From the NCBI RefSeq assembly GCF_009296025.1, contig NZ_CP045178.1, forward strand, positions 5,704,001-5,768,000: DNA of 64,000 bases, in the 5' to 3' direction. Under the pieces are notes generated by a model, which was given only the letters and a program-made list of their open reading frames with translations, did no database searches and was not told the origin of the DNA. The position numbers and the translations under genes were made by a program. Shown piece after piece: positions 5,814-61,271 of this stretch (positions are counted from its first letter, which is position 1; every line of letters starts with the position of its first letter). The DNA comes from Streptomyces tsukubensis (GTDB lineage: Bacteria; Actinomycetota; Actinomycetes; Streptomycetales; Streptomycetaceae).

Positions 5814-8018
5814 TTGAGTCGTGAAACTGAGAGTTCGTCCTCCGGGCCCCAGGGGCGTGGCGGGGCCGCGTACCCGTCGGGTACGCCTCCGTACGGATCC
5901 CCGGCCCAGAGTGACGAGAACGAGCGTGACGCGCCCGGCGCGGACGCCTCGCCCCGGGCCGCCGAGCCGAAGGCTCCGGGCCGGCCGGACGAGCGCAAGA
6001 CCGAGACGACGCTGACCACGCGTATCCGGATCAACATCCCCGGATCGCGACCGATTCCCCCCGTGGTCATGCGCACTCCCATGGGAGAGGGCGAACAGGC
6101 CGAGCCCATCACGGGCCCCGCCACGCCCGAGCCCGCCGCCGAGCCACCGGCCCCCGAGGCCGAGGAGAAGCCCCCGAGCGACTGGTTCGCCCCGCGCAAG
6201 GGCGGCACCAGGGGCGGCAACACGCCGCTGGGCGGCAGCGGGAGCACCCCGGCGGGCGGTACGCCCAACGGTGGTGCCGGTACGCCCACCGGTGGCGCGC
6301 CGGGCCGTGCCTCGGGCAACGGCGGCGCCCCCGGCGGCGGGAGTGAGCCGAATCCGGGCGGCAGCGGCGCGTTCGACGTGTCCCAGGCGCTCGCCGCCGG
6401 GCCGCTGGGCCAGGGCGCCAAGCCGCCCGGCGCCGGGCGCAACGGTGCGGGAAACCGCCCCTCGGGGCCCACCGGCGGCCCCACGACGGGCGACGGGCCA
6501 CTCGTCCCCTCCGCGTACCCGCCGCCGGGCGACACGCGGCCGGGCGGGCATCCCCGCGACGGCGGCGGTCCGGTCGGCGGGCCGCGCGCCGGTGACGGCG
6601 CGGGCGCCCCGTGGGACGGTGACGCCACCAGCCAGACGCGGATCGGTGACACCACGGGCGAGACCCGGATCGGTGACACCACGGGGCAGGCGCCGATCGG
6701 AGACCCGTTCGCCGAGGTCCGTAGGGAACAGGCCGCCGGCCGAAACTGGATGGGCGACGACACGGCCGTCCTGACGCCGCAGGGCCCGTCGTCCTCCGAT
6801 CCGTTCGGCGCAGGTCCCGGTGGTCCCGGCAGTGGTCCCGGCGCGGGGCAGGGGCCCGGCTCCGGCTCGGGCGACAACATCTCCAGTTCCACCCTGACCA
6901 GCGGCATCCCCGTGGTGCCCCCGCTACAGGGACCGGGCGCGGGGCCGTACGGCCAGGGCGACCAGGGCCCGTTCCCGCCGCTGGGACCAGGCGGTCCTGG
7001 AGGGCCCGCGCGGTTCCCCGAGCCGGTGAGCGAACCGGCGCCCGCCGCGTCGCCGCCCGCCAAGAAGGCGAAGAAGGGCGGCCGCAAGGTCACCCTCGCC
7101 ATCGGCGTCGTCGTCGTGCTCGCCGTCGTGTCGTACGGCGCGGGGCTGCTGATGAACCACTCCGACGTGCCCAAGGGCACCACCGTGCTCGGGGTCGACA
7201 TCGGCGGCGGCACCAGGGACACGGCCGTCAACAAGCTGGAGTCGTCGCTCGACGAGCGCACCGTCGCCCCGCTCCCGCTGACCGTGGACGGCCAGAAGGC
7301 CACCCTCAAGCCGTCCCAGGCAGGACTGACCCTGGACAGCCAGGCGACCGTACGGGCCGCGGCGACCAGCGACTACAACCCGGTCTCCGTCATCGGTTCG
7401 CTCTTCGGCCAGAAGCGGGTCGTCCAGCCGGACATGCCCGTCGACAAGGAGAAGCTGGCCGACGCCCTTGAGCGGGTGGCGGGTGTCTCCGGCTCGGCGC
7501 ACGACGGCACGATCACGTTCTCGCCGGGCAAGGCCACTCCTGTGTACGGGAAGCCGGGACAGGCGCTCGACGTCGACAAGTCGATGACCAAGGTCTCCGA
7601 CGCCTACCGCGCACAGGTCCAGAGCGGCAAGTCGGCCGCGGTCCAACTGCCGGTGACGACCAGGAAGCCGACGGTCCCCGACTCCGAGGTCGACCGGATG
7701 ATGAAGGAGTTCGCCAAGCCCGCGATGTCCGGCATCGTCACCATCGAGGCGGGCGGCAAGTCCATCCCCCTCGGCCCCGACAGGTCGCTGCCGCAGATCC
7801 TCGGCGTGAAGGCGGTCGACGGAAAGCTGACGGAGACGTACGACAGGACGGCGCTCAAGAAGCTCTACGGCAACACCTTCGACGGCGTACTGATCACCCG
7901 GGGCACCGGCAAGAAGACGCCCGTGACCCCGGAGGACGTGGTCATGGCCATGCGCAAGGCGTTGGTGGGCAAGACGCCGACGGAGCGGATCGGCGTCATC
8001 GAGACCGACCCGAGCTGA
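5814..8018 (+). CDS. peptidoglycan-binding-type (PG_binding_4 like) single-pass membrane protein with long low-complexity cytoplasmic region
   Basis: The protein has 734 residues. Residues 1-415 are Gly/Pro/Ser/Ala-rich and disordered, containing tandem copies of RIGDTTG around 280-300. A basic stretch (KKAKKGGRK) precedes a single transmembrane helix at about 423-441, and the C-terminal ~290 residues are folded and extracytoplasmic. That part shows two repeats of the type seen in VanW/YkuD-associated PG_binding_4 domains (conserved TVLGVDIGG and TFSPGKATPVYGKPGQALD). The TTG at 5814 is chosen because AGGAG lies eight bases upstream. A role in cell-wall binding or assembly is inferred; no catalytic Cys motif is present. 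Confidence 0.8.
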   Translation: MSRETESSSSGPQGRGGAAYPSGTPPYGSPAQSDENERDAPGADASPRAAEPKAPGRPDERKTETTLTTRIRINIPGSRPIPPVVMRTPMGEGEQAEPITGPATPEPAAEPPAPEAEEKPPSDWFAPRKGGTRGGNTPLGGSGSTPAGGTPNGGAGTPTGGAPGRASGNGGAPGGGSEPNPGGSGAFDVSQALAAGPLGQGAKPPGAGRNGAGNRPSGPTGGPTTGDGPLVPSAYPPPGDTRPGGHPRDGGGPVGGPRAGDGAGAPWDGDATSQTRIGDTTGETRIGDTTGQAPIGDPFAEVRREQAAGRNWMGDDTAVLTPQGPSSSDPFGAGPGGPGSGPGAGQGPGSGSGDNISSSTLTSGIPVVPPLQGPGAGPYGQGDQGPFPPLGPGGPGGPARFPEPVSEPAPAASPPAKKAKKGGRKVTLAIGVVVVLAVVSYGAGLLMNHSDVPKGTTVLGVDIGGGTRDTAVNKLESSLDERTVAPLPLTVDGQKATLKPSQAGLTLDSQATVRAAATSDYNPVSVIGSLFGQKRVVQPDMPVDKEKLADALERVAGVSGSAHDGTITFSPGKATPVYGKPGQALDVDKSMTKVSDAYRAQVQSGKSAAVQLPVTTRKPTVPDSEVDRMMKEFAKPAMSGIVTIEAGGKSIPLGPDRSLPQILGVKAVDGKLTETYDRTALKKLYGNTFDGVLITRGTGKKTPVTPEDVVMAMRKALVGKTPTERIGVIETDPS

Positions 8019-14964: not shown

Positions 14965-16056
14965 TTGGCAGTCTCAGACCTTCTGCCGGTCTTCCCCTGG
15001 GACAAGCTGGAGTCCTACAAGGCGACAGCGGCCGCCCACCCGGACGGCATCGTGGACCTGTCCGTCGGCACGCCGGTCGACCCGGTGCCCGAGCTGGTCC
15101 AGAAGGCGCTGGTGGACGGCGCCGACTCGCCCGGCTATCCGACCGTGTGGGGCACGCCCGCGCTGCGTGACGCGATCGTCTCCTGGTGCGAGCGGCGGCT
15201 CGGCGCGCACGGCCTGACCCACCACCACGTCCTGCCCGTCGTCGGCTCCAAGGAACTCGTGGCCTGGGCCCCGACCCAGCTCGGCCTCGGCCCGGGGGAC
15301 CGTGTGGCGTACCCGCGCCTCGCCTACCCGACGTACGAGGTGGGCGCCCGGCTGGCCCGCGCCGATCACGAGGTCTACGACGACCCGACGGAGCTCGACC
15401 CGCGCGGCCTGAAGCTGCTGTGGCTCAACTCGCCGTCCAACCCCACCGGCCGCGTCCTGTCCAAGGACGAGCTGACGCGCATCGTGGCCTGGGCGCGCGA
15501 GCACGGGATCCTCGTCCTCAGCGACGAGTGCTACCTGGAACTCGGCTGGGACGCCGACCCGGTCTCCGTCCTCCACCCGGACGTCTGTGGCGGCTCCTAC
15601 GAGGGTGTCGTCGCCGTCCAGTCGCTCTCCAAGCGTTCCAACCTCGCCGGGTACCGCGCCGCGTTCCTCGCCGGTGACTCCGCGGTCCTCGGCGAACTGC
15701 TGAAGATCCGCAAGCACGGCGGAATGATGGCCCCGGCCCCCGTCCAGGCCGCGGCCGCCGCGGCCCTCGGCGACGACGTCCACGTACACGAACAGCGGGA
15801 GCGTTACACGGCCCGCCGCACCGCGCTGCGCGCCGCCCTGGTCGAGCACGGCTTCACCATCGAACACAGCGAGGCGGGCCTCTACCTGTGGGCCACCCGC
15901 GGCGAGTCCTGCTGGGACACGGTGGGTCATCTCGCCGGGCTCGGCATCCTTGTGGCCCCCGGCGATTTCTACGGTACGGCGGGGGAGCGGCACGTACGGG
16001 TGGCGCTCACCGCCTCCGACGAGCGAGTGGCCGCCGCGGTCGCGCGCCTGGCGTGA
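14965..16056 (+). CDS. dapC: succinyldiaminopimelate transaminase
   Basis: A PLP-dependent class I aminotransferase of 363 residues. It converts N-succinyl-2-amino-6-ketopimelate to succinyl-diaminopimelate in the lysine and peptidoglycan pathway. The Schiff-base lysine is Lys223 in SLSKRSNLAGYR; LNSPSNPTGRVL and SDECYLELGW supply other cofactor contacts. The TTG at 14965 is chosen because AGGAAAG lies upstream and the homologous N-terminus (VSDLLPVFPWDKLESYKATA) follows; an ATG at 14935 lacks a ribosome site. The partner enzyme DapE is encoded 2.4 kb downstream. Confidence 0.92.
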   Translation: MAVSDLLPVFPWDKLESYKATAAAHPDGIVDLSVGTPVDPVPELVQKALVDGADSPGYPTVWGTPALRDAIVSWCERRLGAHGLTHHHVLPVVGSKELVAWAPTQLGLGPGDRVAYPRLAYPTYEVGARLARADHEVYDDPTELDPRGLKLLWLNSPSNPTGRVLSKDELTRIVAWAREHGILVLSDECYLELGWDADPVSVLHPDVCGGSYEGVVAVQSLSKRSNLAGYRAAFLAGDSAVLGELLKIRKHGGMMAPAPVQAAAAAALGDDVHVHEQRERYTARRTALRAALVEHGFTIEHSEAGLYLWATRGESCWDTVGHLAGLGILVAPGDFYGTAGERHVRVALTASDERVAAAVARLA

Positions 16057-16142
16057 CGGGCTGAGTCCGGCTCGCCCGCCCGCGCGCTGCGGTGTGCGCG
16101 GGTCGCGGAGGGGCCGGTCACGGCGGACCGGCCGCGGACAGA

Positions 16143-16180
16143 CGGAAGACCCGGGGAGTTCGTGCTCCTCGGGTCTTCCG
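16143..16180. terminator. strong hairpin terminator after dapC
   Basis: The arms cggaagacccggggag (16143-16158) and ctcctcgggtcttccg (16165-16180) pair over 16 positions with one wobble and a six-base loop, followed by gtttctgtt. Opposing genes end on either side, so it probably works in both directions. Confidence 0.8.
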
Positions 16181-16189
16181 GTTTCTGTT

Positions 16190-16226
16190 GGGCGCCCGCT
16201 CCAGGGGGGAGAGGAAGCGGGCGCCC
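16190..16226. terminator. second hairpin in the convergent interval
   Basis: gggcgcccgct (16190-16200) pairs perfectly with agcgggcgccc (16216-16226), 11 bases with a 15-base loop, only ten bases after the previous hairpin. It likely ends leftward transcription of the secreted-protein gene. Confidence 0.65.
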
Positions 16227-16315
16227 GGTCTGTGTGCCCTCAGGGTGACCGGTAGAGGTCACGACGGCCGAAGGGGGTGCCGGCCGGGGTCAGGGGCAGG
16301 TGCGGAGAGGGCGGT

Positions 16316-16756
16316 TCAGCGGCCGCCGAGGGGCAGGCCGCCGAGGCTGCTGGCGGGCAGGCCGCCGCCGAGGCCCTTGGTGGGGAGGCCACCCTTGGTG
16401 GCGGTCTTGGCGGTGTCGCCGACCAGCGAGCCCGCGGTGCCGGCCAGGCCCCCCGCGGCCTTCTGGGCGGCGGGAGCCGCGGTCTTGCCCGCGTGGCCGA
16501 CGACCTTGCCCGCGGCGGGCACGCCCTGCTTCACGGCCTGGCTGCCGGCCTGGCCCGCGAGGCCCGTCACGTTCTGCGCCGCGCCGTCGACGGTGTTGCC
16601 GAGGCCCTCGCCGTCAAGGGCGGAGACACTGCCCAGGTCGGTGGAGGCGGGGAGTTCCACGGCGCTCGCGGAGCCGGCCGCACCGACCACGGGCGCCGCT
16701 CCAGCCGCGAGAAGCAGGGCTGCACGGGCGATCCGGCGGGTCAGGGGGAGGGACAT
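16316..16756 (-). CDS. secreted Ala/Gly-rich small protein
   Basis: The 146-residue protein has a classic Sec signal: basic start (MSLPLTRRIARA), hydrophobic core (ALLLAAGAAPVVGAAG) and probable cleavage after SASA (near residue 32). The mature part is low-complexity (Ala, Gly, Thr, Lys) with no cysteine or known domain. The ATG at 16756 has taggagc just upstream. The function is unknown; similar short secreted proteins occur widely in streptomycetes. It appears monocistronic between two hairpins and a long upstream spacer. Confidence 0.8.
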   Translation of the reverse strand: MSLPLTRRIARAALLLAAGAAPVVGAAGSASAVELPASTDLGSVSALDGEGLGNTVDGAAQNVTGLAGQAGSQAVKQGVPAAGKVVGHAGKTAAPAAQKAAGGLAGTAGSLVGDTAKTATKGGLPTKGLGGGLPASSLGGLPLGGR

Positions 16757-53345: not shown

Positions 53346-55040
53346 GTGGGACGACACAGCCGTCCACAGCCGTCGGGAAAATCGTCCACGGGACCGGCCG
53401 GCGCCGGTACCGGGCGCGACGAGGACCCGGCCGGCCAGGCCGAGGGGACCGGAGGAACGAGCACGGGCACGCCCGCGTACGTCCCTGGCCCCGGCCGCCG
53501 CAGACGCTCGGCCTCCGCGGGCCGGGCCGGCGAGGCGCCGTCCGGCGCGCCCGGCCCCGGCACCTCTTCTCCCGCCCCGTCCGGCAGCTCCCCCTTCGGT
53601 GGTCCCGGAGCCGGCCCCGCCTCCGGGACCGGGCCCGCGTCCGACGCCCAGTCGCGTGGCGGCCACCCCGAACAGCACGAGCCGGGCGGCGGCTGGGGCT
53701 CGGGTGAGGGCCCGCGCACGAACAGCGGCCCCGCCAAGGGATCCGCCGTGCCCAGGGTCGGTGCGGCACCCGGAGTCGCCGGGCCCCGCAAGGAGTATCT
53801 GGAAGCGTTCGACAGCGCGCCCCCGGAGGCCCACCCCACGGGGCGCGGCGGCGCGACCCGTTCTGCGCGATCGGGGGACGGGCCGGGGCGTCCCGGCGAG
53901 GAGGACCTGTTCAGGCCCCGCGTGCCCGGCCCCCGCGCTGTGCTGCCAGGCACGGAGTCGTCCGCCGGGCGGGCTCCCGAGCGGGACGCGTCGGGTACGA
54001 CGGCTGCTTCGGGTACGGGGGCTGCTTCGGGTACGGCGACGGTTTCGGGTGCGGCGGCCAGGAAGTCCGTCCCCGTCCAGGGGCGGCCCAAGGGCCCGGG
54101 AGGCCCCGAAGGCCCGTCGGAGGAGGCCGGACGTCCCGCGGTCACTCCGCAGGGACCTCCCGTGTACTGGGACTCGGAACGGGACGGTCCGCTCGTCCCC
54201 GAAGGCCCTGAGCCCCCCGCCACCGCCTTTCGCTGGACCAAGGGCCGCACTGTCACGGGCGGGCTGGCCGCTGTGCTGACCGTCGCTCTCGCCGTCTTCG
54301 TCGCGGGTGAGGTGTCCGACTCGCACTCCGGCGGCGACACGGCACACGCCGCCTCCGGCGCGCAGAGCGGCAAGGGCGGGCGTTTCGGCACCCGCTCCGA
54401 CGAGCGGCCCACGCCGCCTGCGGAGGAGTCCGCCCCGCCGACGTACGACGAGAAGATGGCCAAGAAGATCCCGATGGCGGCCGATCTGGAGGCGTCGGGG
54501 AAATTCGAGACCATGACGGGCGCCGACAAGGCGCCCAGCCGGGGGCGGCAGGCGCTGCGCTACCGCGTCGATGTGGAGAAGGGGCTCCATCTCGACGGAG
54601 GTCTCTTCACCGAGGCGGTGCAGAAGACCCTGAACGACAAGCGGAGTTGGGCCCACGACAACGCTCGTTCTTTCGAGCGCATATCGTCGGGGAAGCCTGA
54701 TTTCGTCATCACGCTCGCAAGTCCGGGGACCACCGCGGTCTGGTGCGCGAAGTCCGGCCTCGACACGACCGAGGACAACGTTTCCTGCGACTCGGCCGCC
54801 ACCGAACGCGTGATGATCAACGCCTACCGATGGGCCGAGGGCTCCAAGACGTACGGCGACGCGATTCACCCGTACCGGCAGATGCTGATCAATCACGAGG
54901 TCGGTCACCGTCTCGGCTACAACCACGTGACGTGCAGCAACGACGGCGCTCTCGCCCCGGTCATGCAGCAGCAGACCAAGTTCCTCACCTACAACGGCAT
55001 CACCTGCCGCCCCAACCCCTGGGCATTTCCGCACAATTGA
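53346..55040 (+). CDS. DUF3152 metalloprotease-like membrane protein
   Basis: The 564-residue protein has a disordered N-terminal ~300 residues (with alanine/serine repeats SGTGAASGTATVSG), a transmembrane helix (VTGGLAAVLTVALAVFVAGEV) and an extracytoplasmic DUF3152 domain with the zinc motif HEVGHRLGYNH (His517, Glu518, His521). Conserved cysteines (CAKSG, CDSA, CSNDG, CRP) may form disulfides. It resembles Rv3207c. A protease function is inferred from the motif. Confidence 0.87.
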   Translation: MGRHSRPQPSGKSSTGPAGAGTGRDEDPAGQAEGTGGTSTGTPAYVPGPGRRRRSASAGRAGEAPSGAPGPGTSSPAPSGSSPFGGPGAGPASGTGPASDAQSRGGHPEQHEPGGGWGSGEGPRTNSGPAKGSAVPRVGAAPGVAGPRKEYLEAFDSAPPEAHPTGRGGATRSARSGDGPGRPGEEDLFRPRVPGPRAVLPGTESSAGRAPERDASGTTAASGTGAASGTATVSGAAARKSVPVQGRPKGPGGPEGPSEEAGRPAVTPQGPPVYWDSERDGPLVPEGPEPPATAFRWTKGRTVTGGLAAVLTVALAVFVAGEVSDSHSGGDTAHAASGAQSGKGGRFGTRSDERPTPPAEESAPPTYDEKMAKKIPMAADLEASGKFETMTGADKAPSRGRQALRYRVDVEKGLHLDGGLFTEAVQKTLNDKRSWAHDNARSFERISSGKPDFVITLASPGTTAVWCAKSGLDTTEDNVSCDSAATERVMINAYRWAEGSKTYGDAIHPYRQMLINHEVGHRLGYNHVTCSNDGALAPVMQQQTKFLTYNGITCRPNPWAFPHN

Positions 55041-55188
55041 GCTGCGGAACGCCCCCTCTCCGGGCGGTCGAGGGTGGCTGTCCGGGAGCGGGGCGGGGTG
55101 CGCTGACGGTGTGCGCGGCGATGTAACCGGCGGTATAACGCGGTAAAACGCGGCTCGGCCAGGAAAGTTACGGCCGTTCACCCCTTCT

Positions 55189-55222
55189 GGTGGCGCGACG
55201 GACGGTTGTCCGTCGCGCCACC
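55189..55222. terminator. perfect 15-bp hairpin
   Basis: ggtggcgcgacggac (55189-55203) pairs with gtccgtcgcgccacc (55208-55222) around ggtt. It is between DUF3152 and the glycosyltransferase; it may terminate the former or sit in the leader of the latter. Upstream, cggtataacgcggtaaaacg holds near-repeats resembling a promoter. Confidence 0.6.
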
Positions 55223-55295
55223 GGCATGTCCGCATACGTTCGTTCCGCTGTGGGCCGCTCGTAGGGATGGCGGCCCCTCGAACGGGAGGACGGGA

Positions 55296-57287
55296 GTGCT
55301 CGTGCGCATAGGACTGCTCACGGAGGGTGGCTACCCGTATGCCAGTGGTGAGGCGAGACTCTGGTGCGACCGACTGGTGCGCGGACTCGACGGCCACGAG
55401 TTCGACCTCTACGCGCTCAGCCGCAGTGAGTGCCAGGAGGCGCACGGCTGGGTCGAGCTGCCGCCCCAGGTGAGCCGGGTGCGCACCGCCCCTCTGTGGG
55501 CCGCTCCCGACGAGGAGGCCAGGCTCTCGCGGCGCGGCAGGCGCCGGTTCGCCGCGCACTACGGCGAGTTGGCCGCCACTCTCTGCTCGATGGACGGCGC
55601 CGGCGTGGGATGGGGCGGTGAACGTGCGGAGGACCGTTTCAGCAACTCGCTCCACGGGCTCGCCGAACTCGCCGCGGACGAGGAGGGGCTCTCCTCGGCG
55701 CTCCGCTCGGAGGCGGCCGTGCGCGCTCTGGAAAGCGCCTGTCGCGCGCCCGGCGCACGGCGGGCCGTCCGAGGGGCGCGAGTGGCGGACCTGGTCGCCA
55801 TGAGCGCCCTGCTCGAAGAGGCCCTGCGGCCCCTCTCCCTCGACTGGTACGCGGCGGACAGCCTCGGCGCCGTCGACCTCTGCCACGCCACCTCGGGTGG
55901 CTCGGCCGCGCTGCCAGGACTGCTCGCGCGGCACTTCTCCGGCGTGCCGCTGCTCGTCACCGAGTACGGAGTACGGCTGCGGGCGCACTACCTCGGGAAC
56001 GGGGCGTACGACGGAACGGCCACGCCGGGCGCGGGCGGGCTGCGCGCGCCGGTGCGCGCCGTCCTCGCCGCGTTCCACCGCGAACTCGCCGCCGAGGTCT
56101 ACCGCCGAGCCGTCCTCATCACCCCGGGCAACACCCACGCCCGACGCTGGCAGGAGCAGTGCGGCGCCGAGCGCGCGAAGCTGCGGACGGTCTATCCGGG
56201 GATGGACGCCGCGCGGTTCGCGAGGGTCGGCGACGAGGCCGAGGCGGGCTTCAGGGGCGTGCGGGCCGCTTCCGCCCCCCGTGACCCGCACTCCTCCACC
56301 ACGTCCGCCGCGAGGTCTGCCGCGAGCGGCCCGGCCGTCACCGATGCCGGGCCCGGTGCTCCGGGACGGTCCGCCGAGCCGACCTGGGTCACCGGCGGGC
56401 CGGGAGCACCGGCCGGTTCGGCGGGAACGGCGTCGGCGGATTTGGCCGCGCCGCCTGCCGCGCAGGCGCGCACCCTCGTCTGGGTCGGTCGAGCCGAGCC
56501 CACGAAGGACCTGGTCACGCTCCTGCACGCGGTAGCGCTGCTCAGGGAGGACGAGCCGGAGACCCGGCTGCGCGTCGTCTCGGCGCCCACCAGGGACGAC
56601 GAGGAGGCCGCCTACCTCGGCCAGTGCCGGGCACTGGCCGAGGAACTCTTCACACCGGAGCACGCGCAGGAGCGTGCGGTGAGCCGGCGAGAACCCGCGG
56701 TCGCCTTCGAGGAGATCGGCGACCCCGGCCTTCCCGATCTCGCGGAGGTCTACGCGGCCGGGAACGTCGTCGTCCTCTCCAGCCTTGTCGAAGGCTTCCC
56801 GATCAGCCTGGTCGAGGCCATGTTCTGCGGGTGCGCCACCGTGTCGACGGATGTCGGTGCCGTCGTGGAGGTCATCGGCGGCACCGGGCTGGTCGTGGAG
56901 CCCGCCGACCCCTCGGCGCTCGCGGCGGCCTGCCGCACACTGCTGCGCGATCCCGAGCGCCGTGCACGCCTGGGCGCGGCGGCTCGCGCCCGCGCCCTCG
57001 AACTCTTCACCATCGAACAGAACGTCGACCGCTTCCGCGAGATCTATCAGGAGATCGTGGCGCGCTGCCCCGTGGAGCGCGAGACGCACGACGCCCCGGG
57101 CGAGCCACTGCCCTTCGCCCGCCCCGCCGAGCGGCGGCTCGCGAGCCGTACGTCCGCCGCGGGTACGGGAGAACCGCCCCTCGGGGCCCGGCCGTTCAAC
57201 GACGACCGGGCGACCACACCGAGCTGGGCGAGGACCACCCGGCCGCACACCAGGGCTACCGGCGTGAGCGTGGAGGCCGGCCGGTGA
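55296..57287 (+). CDS. PelF-like (DUF3492) GT4 glycosyltransferase
   Basis: The 663-residue enzyme begins RIGLLTEGGYPYASGEARLWCDRLVRGL, typical of the DUF3492 N-domain of PelF, then LLVTEYGVRLRAHYL. The C-terminal GT4 domain has LVWVGRAEPTKDLVTLLHAVALL, VYAAGNVVVLSSLVEGFPISLVEAMFCG and the donor motif VVEPADP. A ~65-residue Ala/Ser/Pro-rich segment (about 325-390) splits the two lobes. PelF uses UDP-GlcNAc/GalNAc to polymerise Pel; here the substrate is not proven. GTG 55296 has gggagg upstream. It overlaps the next gene by GTGA. Confidence 0.85.
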   Translation: MLVRIGLLTEGGYPYASGEARLWCDRLVRGLDGHEFDLYALSRSECQEAHGWVELPPQVSRVRTAPLWAAPDEEARLSRRGRRRFAAHYGELAATLCSMDGAGVGWGGERAEDRFSNSLHGLAELAADEEGLSSALRSEAAVRALESACRAPGARRAVRGARVADLVAMSALLEEALRPLSLDWYAADSLGAVDLCHATSGGSAALPGLLARHFSGVPLLVTEYGVRLRAHYLGNGAYDGTATPGAGGLRAPVRAVLAAFHRELAAEVYRRAVLITPGNTHARRWQEQCGAERAKLRTVYPGMDAARFARVGDEAEAGFRGVRAASAPRDPHSSTTSAARSAASGPAVTDAGPGAPGRSAEPTWVTGGPGAPAGSAGTASADLAAPPAAQARTLVWVGRAEPTKDLVTLLHAVALLREDEPETRLRVVSAPTRDDEEAAYLGQCRALAEELFTPEHAQERAVSRREPAVAFEEIGDPGLPDLAEVYAAGNVVVLSSLVEGFPISLVEAMFCGCATVSTDVGAVVEVIGGTGLVVEPADPSALAAACRTLLRDPERRARLGAAARARALELFTIEQNVDRFREIYQEIVARCPVERETHDAPGEPLPFARPAERRLASRTSAAGTGEPPLGARPFNDDRATTPSWARTTRPHTRATGVSVEAGR

Positions 57288-58618
57288 AGACACGGACGAC
57301 CGCGGCGGCAAGCGTCGCGCACGTGAAGGACCGTACGACAGAGGCGGATGTGTCGAACGAGAAGGGCGGTACGTCAGCGGCGGCCGGTGATCACCCGCCG
57401 GTCGCCGGTGACCACCACCCGGCTGCCGGGCGACCGGCAACCGGCGTGCGGACAGCAACCGGCGTGCGGACGGCGCACGGGACGCGGACAGCGCCCCGCA
57501 CCCCTCCCGCCCGGGGCACGGCGGGCACCAGCGGCGCCGACCCCGTCAAGGCCCTGATGGAGGAGCACCGGGCCTGGTGCGAACGGGCCGTCGACCCCCT
57601 GGAGATAGCTGCCGGGCTCGAAGCACACGGCATCACGGACCGGGCAGTCGCGCGCTATCGCCACCGCACCGTCTTCTCACTCGCGGAGGAGATGTACGCG
57701 CGGCTGCCCCAGGACGACGACCACGACATCGGTACGTCCGACACGGGCCACGCAGGCCACCCGGCCCCCGATGACGGGCACGAACGCGGACGCGGCACCG
57801 GCTGGGCCGTACTCGTCCTGCTGCCGGCCGCCCTGTGCGCGCTGACCCTCGCGGGCGCGCACCTCGCCTCGGGCGGCTCCCGCCTCGCCGTCATCGCCGC
57901 GGGCGCGCCGGCCGTGGCCCTGGCCGTACGCGCCTGCCTGCGCCACGGCCCGCTCGTCGCCCCCGTCCCTGGCGGACCGGCCGCCCGCCTCCGGACCTGC
58001 GGACTCCTCGCGTACGCCTGCTACGGCGACGGCCTCATCGACGCCGCGCTCACCGGCGGCCCCGACGAGCCCTGGCCCCCGCACACCGCACCGCTGCTCG
58101 CCCTCTGCGCGGCTGTCGCGCCCGCCGCCTGGTGCGCCGGGTTCTTCGCCGTGAGGGCCAGGCACGCGCTGCGCACCAGCCGGGGCCTCGACGACTTCGC
58201 CGCCTCCGTGTGGCCGCCGCTGCTCGGCGCCCTCGCCGTCCATCTCTGTCTGCTGGGCGCACTGCTCGGTCTCTCCGGAGCGCTACTGGGCCAGGCCACC
58301 GGCCTTCCCGGTGCGGGCGCACTCGGTCTGCTGCTCTTCCTGGCCCGGCTGCTCATGGCGCACGGCGTACCCGTACCCGCCCGAGCCGCGCTGGGGGCCG
58401 CCTTCGCCGCCGAAGTGCTCGCCGTCTGCTCCGTCTTCATCGGGCGCCTCCCGGAGTGCGCGTTCCTCGCCGTCCCCGTGGAGAACCTCACCTCGGCCCT
58501 CGGCGCGGGGGCCGTACCCGCCCTCGCCTGCTCGGCCGCGGCCCTGCCGCTCCTGGTCCACGCCCTCTCCGCCCTCACCAAGGCCTCCGCCCACCTCTTC
58601 CATGACGGTGGCCGGTGA
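57284..58618 (+). CDS. polytopic membrane protein of the PelF-like cluster
   Basis: A 444-residue protein whose ~165-residue N-terminus has low-complexity repeats (TGVRTATGVRTA) and a cytoplasmic helix region (CERAVDPLEIAAGLEAHGITDRAVARYRHRTVFSLAEEMYARL). About ten transmembrane helices follow. The topology resembles a flippase or polymer export partner such as PelG, but I see no sequence match that would prove it. GTG start is coupled to the glycosyltransferase (GTGA, ggagg upstream). Confidence 0.78.
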   Translation: MKTRTTAAASVAHVKDRTTEADVSNEKGGTSAAAGDHPPVAGDHHPAAGRPATGVRTATGVRTAHGTRTAPRTPPARGTAGTSGADPVKALMEEHRAWCERAVDPLEIAAGLEAHGITDRAVARYRHRTVFSLAEEMYARLPQDDDHDIGTSDTGHAGHPAPDDGHERGRGTGWAVLVLLPAALCALTLAGAHLASGGSRLAVIAAGAPAVALAVRACLRHGPLVAPVPGGPAARLRTCGLLAYACYGDGLIDAALTGGPDEPWPPHTAPLLALCAAVAPAAWCAGFFAVRARHALRTSRGLDDFAASVWPPLLGALAVHLCLLGALLGLSGALLGQATGLPGAGALGLLLFLARLLMAHGVPVPARAALGAAFAAEVLAVCSVFIGRLPECAFLAVPVENLTSALGAGAVPALACSAAALPLLVHALSALTKASAHLFHDGGR

Positions 58619-59340
58619 GCGGGGGCGTGGAGCCGCGCGCCGGGGCGAGCGGCCGGCGGCCGGACCCCGCGGGCCTGTGTTCCTCCGTTCTCCGCTGGTT
58701 CCACGGCCCCGCGCGTGACGCGGACGCGGGGGCCGACGGAGGCCGGGGCCCCGTACGCCCCGCGTGGGTACGGGCGGGACGCACCCGAACCTCCCGCGGC
58801 CCGACGCCGACCTCGGGTCGCTCTCACGTGACACCCGCGCCCCGTTCGTGGAAGGCCCGGAATCCCTCCTCGCCCGGTCCCACGCCGACCTCGCACCGCC
58901 GGTCCGTGCCGTCCCGTGACCGTACGGGCGGGCGCGCCGCCGCCGGGTTCACCCCGGCGGGTCTGCGGGCACTCGCGCCCCGCCGCGCACCGGGGGCCCG
59001 GTGGTCGAGCGCCGCCGCCCCGTCCGCTCCCCGTACGCGTCGACGGCCCGCTCCGCGACCCATGCCCCGACTCCGCCGGTCCTGCCGCTCCCCGCGCAGG
59101 GCCCGGTGGACGCGCCGCCCGTACGCCGTGAGACGCGGCCCCTCCGCGTCTCCACCCCGGCGACCAGCGGGCCGCCGCCCGCTCGCCTCCCGCGACCGGG
59201 CGGCCCGCTCCACCGGCGACCACCGCACCTGCCAGGTGGGGCACGTCGTGCCCCGAGCCGGGTACTTCCGTTCTTTCCCGTGACGCCCACCGCGCGTTCA
59301 CCGTTCCCCTCCCGCGGAGCCGACACCGCGGGCCCGATCA
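58619..59340. other. gene-free stretch inside the polysaccharide-type cluster
   Basis: A 722-base region where every open frame on both strands is Arg/Pro/Ser-rich and matches no family. A frame that would start by GTGA overlap at 58615 is off-composition. It may contain a decayed gene or a regulatory spacer. Confidence 0.5.
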
Positions 59341-59374
59341 GTGACCCACGGCCACACCCCGAAGGAGAGCTCAG

Positions 59375-59422
59375 ATGACCAGCCCCCGCCGCCGCACATC
59401 AGTCCCGGGAGCCGCCCGATGA
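59375..59422 (+). CDS. 15-residue leader ORF coupled to the epimerase
   Basis: MTSPRRRTSVPGAAR starts seven bases after ggag and stops in TGA, which overlaps the epimerase ATG as ATGA. It may couple or gate translation of the epimerase. Its strong ribosome site is better than that of the main gene. Confidence 0.45.
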   Translation: MTSPRRRTSVPGAAR

Positions 59423-60426
59423 GGGTCCTGCTGATCGGAGCCAATGGATATCTCGGCCGCTTCGTCGCCGACCGGCTGCTCGCCGACCCCGCCGTCCAGC
59501 TCACCGTCCTCGGGCGCGGGGACGACGCCGACGTGCGGTTCGACCTCGCGGGCGGCAGCCCGGGAGCGCTGACCCGCTTCCTCGACGCGGTCCACCCCGG
59601 CGTCGTCGTCAACTGCGCCGGTGCCACCCGCGGCGGCGCCCGCGAACTGACCCGGCACAACACCGTCGCGGTCGCCACCGTCTGCGAGGCCCTGCGCCGC
59701 AGTGGCTGCGGCGCGCGACTCGTACAGCTCGGCTGCGGCGCCGAGTACGGCCCCAGCCAGCCGGGATCCTCCACCGCGGAGGACGCCGTACCGCGACCGG
59801 GCGGGCCCTACGGCGTCAGCAAACTCGCCGCCACCGAGCTGGTGCTCGGTTCCGGGCTCGACGCCGTCGTCCTGCGCGTCTTCTCGCCCGCGGGGCCCGG
59901 TACCCCGGCGGGCTCCCCGCTCGGCCGGCTCGCCGAGGCCATGCGCCGCGCCATGCAGGCGGGCGACGGCGAACTGAAACTCGGCGGGCTCGGAGTGCAG
60001 CGTGACTTCGTGGACGTACGGGACATCGCCCGCGCCGTGCACGCCGCCTCGCTCTCCGCCGCCCAGGGCATCGTCAACATCGGCTCGGGCCGGGCGGTGC
60101 GGCTCCGTGACGCGGCCACCGTCCTCGCCCGAGTGGCGGGGTTCACCGGCGCACTGCACGAACTCGACACGCCCCCCGGTTACGCCCCGGGCTCCATGCC
60201 CGCCCGCGAGCTCCAGCCGGGCCACGGCACGCTCCGCTCCACCATCGGGCACCAGCGTTCCGACTCCGACCACGTGGCCCCGGCGGCGCACCCCTACCCG
60301 GACGGCTGCGGAAGCTGGCAGCAGGCCGATGTGCGGACGGCCCGTGACCGGCTCGGCTGGCGGCCCCGCATCAACCTGGAGGAATCGCTGGCCGACATCT
60401 GGATGGAGGCGGCGTGCCGTATCTGA
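59419..60426 (+). CDS. NAD-dependent sugar epimerase/dehydratase family protein
   Basis: The 335-residue extended SDR has the nucleotide motif GANGYLGRFVAD and the catalytic YGVSK (Tyr/Lys) in PRPGGPYGVSKLAATE. The QRDFVDVRDIARAV segment and the ending LGWRPRINLEESLADIW are typical of UDP-sugar 4-epimerases and dTDP-sugar reductases. It could supply UDP-GalNAc to the glycosyltransferase. It overlaps the next gene by 13 bases. Confidence 0.85.
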   Translation: MRVLLIGANGYLGRFVADRLLADPAVQLTVLGRGDDADVRFDLAGGSPGALTRFLDAVHPGVVVNCAGATRGGARELTRHNTVAVATVCEALRRSGCGARLVQLGCGAEYGPSQPGSSTAEDAVPRPGGPYGVSKLAATELVLGSGLDAVVLRVFSPAGPGTPAGSPLGRLAEAMRRAMQAGDGELKLGGLGVQRDFVDVRDIARAVHAASLSAAQGIVNIGSGRAVRLRDAATVLARVAGFTGALHELDTPPGYAPGSMPARELQPGHGTLRSTIGHQRSDSDHVAPAAHPYPDGCGSWQQADVRTARDRLGWRPRINLEESLADIWMEAACRI

Positions 60427-61271
60427 CCCCGGCAGGTCTCCGGGGCGCCGACGGCGGCGTGGCAGATGTCAGGGACCACGCCGCCCGCACGGGCGGCGCC
60501 CCGGGCATCGGCGTGCCCGGCTACGCGCACCCGCTGGTCGCCGCCGCCGAATGGGAGGCGCTCGCCCGGCCGGGGGCGCCCGTCCACTGGGCCGTCCTCA
60601 ACGTGGACAACGGCCCTGGTGTCCGCCCCGACCCGCACTGCCTCGAAGCCGCGGGGCGGATCAAGAACGCCGCCGCCCGTGCCCGCGCCGCCGCCCACCC
60701 GGGCGCGGCGCGGGCCGCCGCGGGCGGCCGCCTGCTCGGACATCTCGACCTCGCCCACGGGGCACGGTCCGCCTCCGAGCTCCTCGCCGAGGCCCGCGCC
60801 TACCTCGACTGGTACCTCGTGGACGGCTTCCTTCTCGCCCGCTGTCCCACCGGGAGCGCGTCGCTGCCACGGGTCGCGGTCCTCACGACCGCCTTGCGTG
60901 AGCTGGCCGAGAGCCCCCATCTCGTTCTCGGCCACGGCCGCCTCCCGCATCCCGGATACGCGGGGACCGCCGACCAGATGGTGACCTTCACCGGCGCCTG
61001 GAGCGAGTACCGGTGGTCCCAGGCGCCTGCGTGGACCGCCGCCCATCCGCCTGGCCGCTTCTGTCATGTCGTACACGGTGTGCCGCGCGGTCATCTCGAC
61101 GAGGCGCTGCGGATCGCGCGGTGGCAGGGCGCGGGGACGGTCTATTTCACCGACCGGACACCCCGTCCGGCGCCACGCGATGACATAGGGGGGCAATCCG
61201 ATCCGTATGCCTCGCTGCCCGGTTACTGGGACGAAATCGTCTCGCGCATCGGACGCGGTGTCTCGGAATGA
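60414..61271 (+). CDS. spherulation-specific family 4 (spherulin-4) protein, possible GH135-like galactosaminidase
   Basis: The 285-residue protein has the spherulin-4 features GIGVPGYAHPL, VHWAVLNVDNGPG, GHLDLAHGARSASELLAEARAYLDWYLVDGFLL and LPGYWDEIV. The fungal relative Sph3 (GH135) cleaves galactosaminogalactan, and PelA contains an analogous hydrolase domain. No signal peptide is seen here, so export or a cytoplasmic role is unclear. GTG overlaps the epimerase; ggatggagg lies upstream. Confidence 0.83.
   Translation: MPYLTPAGLRGADGGVADVRDHAARTGGAPGIGVPGYAHPLVAAAEWEALARPGAPVHWAVLNVDNGPGVRPDPHCLEAAGRIKNAAARARAAAHPGAARAAAGGRLLGHLDLAHGARSASELLAEARAYLDWYLVDGFLLARCPTGSASLPRVAVLTTALRELAESPHLVLGHGRLPHPGYAGTADQMVTFTGAWSEYRWSQAPAWTAAHPPGRFCHVVHGVPRGHLDEALRIARWQGAGTVYFTDRTPRPAPRDDIGGQSDPYASLPGYWDEIVSRIGRGVSE

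Follow-up and report, generated by a model that had tools for sequence, protein, structure and literature searches.

A Streptomyces-wide gene cluster, probably a derived copy of a galactosaminogalactan/Pel-type system, with a conserved leader and an altered Spherulin4 protein

Operons of the agd3 type, in the available part of their survey (PMC7229062), contain genes for a glycosyltransferase (GT) and a membrane protein, consistently a GH114 gene and, in some Actinobacteria, a gene for Spherulin-4. Since the starting point of the survey was Agd3, it probably, judging by that part, would not reach the locus described here, which lies on the plus strand of a 64,000-nucleotide stretch of Streptomyces tsukubensis DNA (NZ_CP045178.1, positions 5,704,001 to 5,768,000), hereafter the window. 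The locus contains genes for a PelF-type GT, a membrane protein, a short-chain dehydrogenase/reductase (SDR) and a Spherulin4 protein, and is read here, at a probability of about 0.55, as a Streptomyces-wide derived copy of a galactosaminogalactan (GAG)/Pel-type polymer system, with the mechanism proposed below. Its gene content, its conservation across the genus, the loss of the catalytic Glu from Spherulin4, a paralogous cluster in the same genome and a conserved leader upstream of the first gene were observed directly.

The features of the locus, in window coordinates, are the following:
55147..55171, plus strand: promoter-like motif AAC-N17-GT(T/C)AC, recognized by upstream conservation
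55170..55302, plus strand: conserved structured leader (RNAalifold, covariance model)
55296..57287, plus strand: gene for a GT4 glycosyltransferase with DUF3492 (PelF-type); from reading of the sequence, the start may instead be the GTG at 55302
57284..58618, plus strand: gene for a membrane protein of 444 residues, with a disordered N-terminus, a conserved helical domain at about residues 86-140 and a helical membrane domain at residues 171-434
59375..59422, plus strand: upstream open reading frame (ORF) of 15 codons, with an ATGA overlap with the SDR start
59419..60426, plus strand: gene for an SDR sugar-nucleotide enzyme with YxxxK and Cys at the position of the catalytic Ser; first called from 59341
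60414..61271, plus strand: gene for a protein of Spherulin4/GH135 fold, predicted not to be a GH135 hydrolase, with Ala142 and Thr193 at the Asp and Glu positions of Sph3

All four genes reported in the initial annotation, with overlaps in both pairs, are present; those of the GT and the membrane protein overlap by 4 nt and those of the SDR and Spherulin4 by 13 nt.

Scanning of contigs with the Spherulin4 protein revealed 406 candidate loci, and the best-scoring 80 were kept, which are skewed to close relatives because they were chosen by score. By title, 79 of these best 80 of 406 loci belong to Streptomyces and one to 'Actinobacteria bacterium OK074'. The Spherulin4 gene is flanked by the SDR gene and moeZ in all 80, while the membrane protein gene is present in 78 and the GT gene in 74; where either is missing, the stretch reaches a contig end. 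For the survey of genomes, alignment was used as the probe, since the profile PF12138 failed to detect the window copy. In an even draw of 121 genomes of the genus, the window genome included, a Spherulin4 match was found in 117 and a window-type match (above 300 bits, tallied from the list) in 112. Window-type scores were confined to the genus among 119 genomes of the order, and outside the genus six matches were found among 296 genomes of the class, every one of them lower-scoring.

From the 112 window-type genomes, 32 loci were sampled, 20 spread along the list and 12 from its low end, and 30 of them contain the block of five genes, namely, those of the GT, membrane protein, SDR, Spherulin4 and MoeZ. 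Of the two incomplete loci, L168 begins at a contig end, and L169 is devoid of the GT and membrane protein genes in the 8.7 kb fetched; the leader (L169:3998-4128) and the genes of the SDR, Spherulin4 and MoeZ are retained there. Co-occurrence of the four genes across Streptomyces, which the initial annotation had put forward as a check, is thus borne out, and it is not chance.

The last of the four genes encodes a member of the Spherulin4 family (PF12138, E 4.7e-16, Pfam profile search of the window protein). For the (beta/alpha)8 barrel of its AlphaFold model, the mean predicted local distance difference test score of which is 71, with residues 1-31 and 259-285 below 50, the best solved match in Foldseek was Aspergillus Sph3 (GH135, PDB 5c5g; E 5.2e-8, template modelling score 0.68 of the target, root-mean-square deviation 6.4); a single-sequence search of solved structures gave no match to Sph3 and no relative. 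The identity as a spherulation-specific family 4 protein assigned initially therefore stands, with a GH135 fold but without the GH135 catalytic residues. In the alignment, the catalytic Asp of Sph3, presumably residue 166, is replaced by Ala142, and the catalytic Glu by Thr193. In the Sph3 chain, the Asp of FDE precedes the Glu by 56 residues and thus stands at position 166, whereas the catalytic residues are printed as Asp196/Glu222 in PMC12054363.

The acid/base position is altered throughout the window-type proteins. Among 81 locus proteins it is occupied by Ser (56), Ala (14), Arg (6), Thr (4) or Gln (1) and never by Glu or Asp, while the nucleophile Asp is retained in 66. The Glu is absent, by alignment, from all 32 proteins of the sampled loci, the Asp counts for which also rest on alignment and not on the pattern script, and from all 40 window-type proteins aligned with proteins of other types; neither Glu nor Asp was found at this position in 120 homologues listed of 1160 (111 by pattern, 9 by eye). 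These sets of 81, 32, 120 and 40 window-type proteins overlap, and all but the set of 32 include the window protein. Both residues are kept in Sph3 and in all 21 distinct bacterial proteins not of the window type, of which 16 come from the genus and 5 from actinomycetes of the class outside it. Trimming of the Sph3 type is not supported, because no window-type copy examined has the Glu and the window protein has neither residue; from its sequence, the latter would not be expected to trim in the manner of Sph3 and is predicted not to be a GH135 hydrolase. The role of chain trimming, for which the initial annotation had itself named absent catalytic residues as the refuting observation, accordingly fails that check. 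No signal peptide was visible by eye in this protein. Public records label some window-type Spherulin4 proteins (P0006, P0016, P0024 and others) 'phage tail protein', which looks like a naming error.

In a tree of 62 rows, the 40 window-type proteins are separated from the other rows by a branch supported at 100/100, with a stem of 1.14, and 13 Streptomyces GAG-type proteins by another, supported at 98/96. The long stem, the mostly short branches within the clade, and the conservation of residues in 31 aligned sequences, where D112 and H218 do not vary and H174, H177 and H221 hardly do, would suit a protein that is re-tooled and not dead, namely, a GH135 barrel with a different active site, acting in the cytoplasm on a lipid- or nucleotide-linked glycan. 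However, D112 and H218 are common to the GAG-type paralogue in the alignment of 31 and therefore not new to the window-type clade, and the conservation of residues may equally well reflect structure or ligand binding; a new activity of this kind is considered unlikely.

The assignment of the first gene product as a DUF3492/PelF-like GT was upheld: PF11997 (DUF3492) is matched at E 5.1e-31, with 108.9 bits against a cut-off of 23.3, GT4 domains are also matched, and the score with the NCBIfam PelF equivalog is 98.8 bits, just below the cut-off of 100. Residues E499 and E507 of the E-x7-E motif do not vary among the 17 aligned sequences, nor do P402, K404 and D405. Between the two GT domains of the window protein lies a low-complexity insert at residues of about 317-386; the orthologues are shorter (median 612 vs 663 aa).

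The membrane protein matched no family of Pfam or NCBIfam at E values up to 1, nor did a sequence search reveal a relative among solved structures, and its predicted fold suggests the MOP flippases as the nearest group. The profile of PelG (PF16933) has no match in the window genome; partial matches were found in 8 of 61 genomes, two of them above the cut-off, in frames of more than 1100 residues. Membership in PelG, which the initial annotation had put forward for checking, is thus not supported by profile, and the MOP-like predicted fold does not decide it.

The third gene product was annotated initially as an SDR sugar epimerase. It matches PF01370 (Epimerase, E 9.3e-36) and retains the motif YGVSKLA, which is kept in 81 of 81 locus proteins, but it falls below every epimerase equivalog cut-off (31.4 bits vs 262.3 for the GalE equivalog), and the top two relatives of solved structure are GDP-6-deoxyhexulose reductases, with a UDP-glucose 4-epimerase ranking sixth. 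The position of the catalytic Ser of the SDR family is occupied by Cys in all 32 sampled loci and in at least 75 of 81 locus proteins; Ser was found in the seven GAG-type loci in which the motif pattern was detected; another seven such loci were examined and gave no match to the pattern. The assignment to the SDR family is retained, therefore, and that of an epimerase is left in doubt.

A small ORF ends at the ATGA of the SDR gene in 97 of 99 sequences, the window included; its commonest length is 15 codons (54 of 97), and GAAGGAG precedes the overlap. Because the TGA follows from an SDR start with Met-Arg/Lys, weight is placed on the shared length, the Shine-Dalgarno sequence and the peptide pattern. 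From these sequence features, ATG 59419, which overlaps the 15-codon ORF, is more likely than 59341 to be the SDR start.

A second, better-scoring DUF3492 match of the window genome, at C2:7088953, belongs to a paralogous cluster (L083, minus strand) with genes for an Agd3-like protein, DUF3492 GT, membrane protein, dehydratase-type SDR, nucleotidyltransferase, SDR, Spherulin4 and GH114. Its GH114 match is strong (E 1.9e-83); the Agd3-like protein matches Agd3_CE weakly (18.9 bits vs the cut-off of 27.6) and has no solved relative by sequence search. The paralogous Spherulin4 keeps the catalytic Asp and Glu and aligns to Sph3 at E 1.9e-13. Since agd3 operons are already described in the available text of PMC7229062, this fuller locus is of a known kind. 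The kinship of the window locus to a GAG-type locus, proposed initially, is strengthened by the presence of this cluster, with its GH114 and Agd3-like protein, in the same genome. The gene of the paralogous membrane protein is split over two frames (L083:5679-8261 and 6794-7567, minus strand), in which a real break and a sequencing error are indistinguishable.

Thirteen further GAG-type loci were examined, eight from the genus and five from elsewhere in the class, some of which end at contig ends; an Agd3-like gene is present in 12, a GT gene in 11, a membrane protein gene in 10 and a GH114 gene in 8. In one genome outside the genus, two GH114 genes (L131:5060-5926 and 15826-16533) flank the GAG-type cluster. 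Queries with the Agd3-like and GH114 proteins gave nothing within the 4.0 to 8.8 kb covered at each of the 32 sampled window-type loci, and no PelA-type deacetylase/hydrolase was found among the seven window genes scanned.

The drift of the SDR and of the hydrolase-like protein from the GAG-type residues and the lack, on inspection by eye, of a signal peptide in Spherulin4 could also point to intracellular or cell-wall glycoconjugate synthesis, e.g., of a glycolipid or a teichoic-like decoration, in which the GAG kinship is ancestral only and no exopolysaccharide is formed; GT4 enzymes are known to be diverse. Against it, 30 of the 32 sampled loci keep both the GT and the membrane protein, as 10 of the 13 GAG-type loci examined do with the equivalents, and little credence is given to this explanation. 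A working compact GAG/Pel pathway, in which the PelF-type GT forms poly-GalNAc, the SDR supplies UDP-GalNAc and Spherulin4 trims the chain, would agree with the DUF3492 match and near-PelF score, with the family and Sph3 fold of Spherulin4 and with the kinship to a locus containing GH114, but it is improbable in view of the acid/base Glu lost in all window-type copies examined, the sampled stretches devoid of Agd3-like and GH114 genes, the SDR profile, which is not epimerase-like, and the absence of a PelG profile match from the window genome. A minimal Pel operon was set aside because of the missing PelG, PelA-type deacetylase and GH135 catalytic residues, and in place of the rearranged minimal Pel form proposed initially, a derived paralogue of a fuller locus fits better.

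Upstream of the GT gene lies an unusually conserved stretch, common to 74 sequences, the window included. In all 74, the motif AAC-N17-GT(T/C)AC is present (counted without a shuffle control) and the distance from GTTACG to TTCACC is constant; the motif is taken here to resemble a promoter of the extracytoplasmic function (ECF) sigma type. WhiG-like and BldD-like patterns are not conserved (0 and 3 of 74, respectively).

Within the leader, CACCCC at 55179-55184 may pair with 55293-55298 over the Shine-Dalgarno sequence and start of the GT gene, and is followed by a 15-bp hairpin at 55189-55222 and a hairpin at 55252-55276. With 38 sequences, RNAalifold predicted the closing helix, the long hairpin and the second hairpin unaided, together with further pairs. 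In the three helices, 97.7% of cells are paired, and four pairs have two-sided changes, in nine cells (shuffle mean 1.7). Of 500 shuffles, 0, 4, 0, 27 and 0 matched the five leader measures, although related sequences may beat such shuffles even without structure; slid controls pair at 33-53%, and one attains three pairs with two-sided changes. The closing helix, which has one mismatch in the window sequence, is without covariation support because it hardly varies. The hairpins are thus supported by comparative data, while the closing helix and the gating by it remain putative; alternatively, the conserved stretch may be a protein-bound DNA palindrome. The loop at 55204-55207 reads GGTT in the window, while the remaining 37 leaders of the alignment have its reverse complement, AACC, as if the hairpin were inverted.

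The covariance model built from the 38 leaders (R1) gave a match in 33 of 37 genomes of the genus, the window genome included, and in 0 of 24 others; the window leader, itself among the training sequences, scores 128.8 bits. The strong matches sat at the GT locus in the genomes compared with the Spherulin4 survey. A multi-copy regulon element was rejected, a single strong match being found in each of 33 of 61 genomes; most of the weaker second matches correspond to this hairpin read on the reverse strand, and two lie elsewhere, at about 30 bits. No Rfam family matched the leader above the gathering score, and MIR8008 and CRISPR-DR29, both below it, were taken as chance.

In S. coelicolor, moeB is SCO5178 in the available text of PMC4340878. 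From the gene order before moeB, the orthologues of the four genes should be SCO5174-5177; the numbers SCO5179-5183 were discarded as wrong, SCO5183 being listed as a helicase. As far as the available part of PMC3610822 reports, SCO5174, SCO5175 and SCO5177 have log2 values of 3.0-3.8 at 48 and 72 h vs MI and are tabulated among the conserved genes of unknown function changed more than 8-fold in the second mycelium; SCO5176 is absent from that table. Actinorhodin is lower in SCO5174 mutants, according to the available part of PMC6585502.

In the proposed mechanism, transcription would begin at the conserved ECF-like promoter and enter the leader, the 5' CACCCC of which would pair with the GT Shine-Dalgarno sequence and so gate translation of the first gene. 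The cytoplasmic PelF-type GT4 would build a chain from a nucleotide sugar supplied or modified by the SDR; the 444-residue membrane protein, by its predicted MOP-like fold, may move the product or a lipid-linked form across the membrane; Spherulin4, having lost the Glu, would bind the chain or the synthase as a scaffold or gauge without cutting. Judging by expression in S. coelicolor under the presumed gene numbers, the system would serve the surface of the second or aerial mycelium. A wider proposal is possible but doubtful, namely, that Streptomyces rebuilt a GAG-type operon as a glycan system that belongs to the core of the genus, is linked to differentiation and centres on a pseudo- or re-tooled GH135 protein, under a new single-copy structured RNA which hides the GT ribosome site and maybe senses a sugar nucleotide or other ligand.

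If the reading as a derived copy is correct, most Streptomyces hold an unassigned glycan pathway, switched on during mycelium differentiation. A hydrolase fold conserved genus-wide without its acid/base residue is a direct test case for pseudoenzyme function in polysaccharide synthesis, for which the fuller paralogous cluster of the same genome serves as an internal control, and the signal that controls the leader could be sought with a simple reporter assay. Upstream of the locus, at window positions 53346-55040, lies a gene for a DUF3152 protein with an HExxH-like stretch, NHEVGHRLGYNH, noticed by eye; the product is perhaps a metalloprotease.

No dedicated study was found in the open-access literature, nor was a genus-wide derived copy found described there. 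Compared with known systems, the window membrane protein differs from the MOP flippases MATE, MurJ and WzxE in its smaller membrane domain, extra N-terminal helical domain and lack of a sequence match. The predicted fold of the window Spherulin4 matches that of Aspergillus Sph3 (5c5g), whereas both catalytic positions are changed in the window genome and no signal peptide is visible by eye. The Gram-positive pelDEADAFG operon, in the available text of PMC7112168, has a PelG and a PelA-type deacetylase, neither of which was found in the window locus (by profile and among the scanned genes, respectively; PelD and PelE were not searched), and resembles it in the PelF-type GT4 and in the epimerase-like SDR and hydrolase-like neighbours. 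The agd3-type GAG-like operons, as far as the available part of PMC7229062 goes, are distinguished from the window locus by the Agd3-like and GH114 genes, which are absent nearby, and by the catalytic Glu, which its Spherulin4 lacks; they have in common with it a cytoplasmic GT, a multi-spanning membrane protein and, in some Actinobacteria, Spherulin-4.
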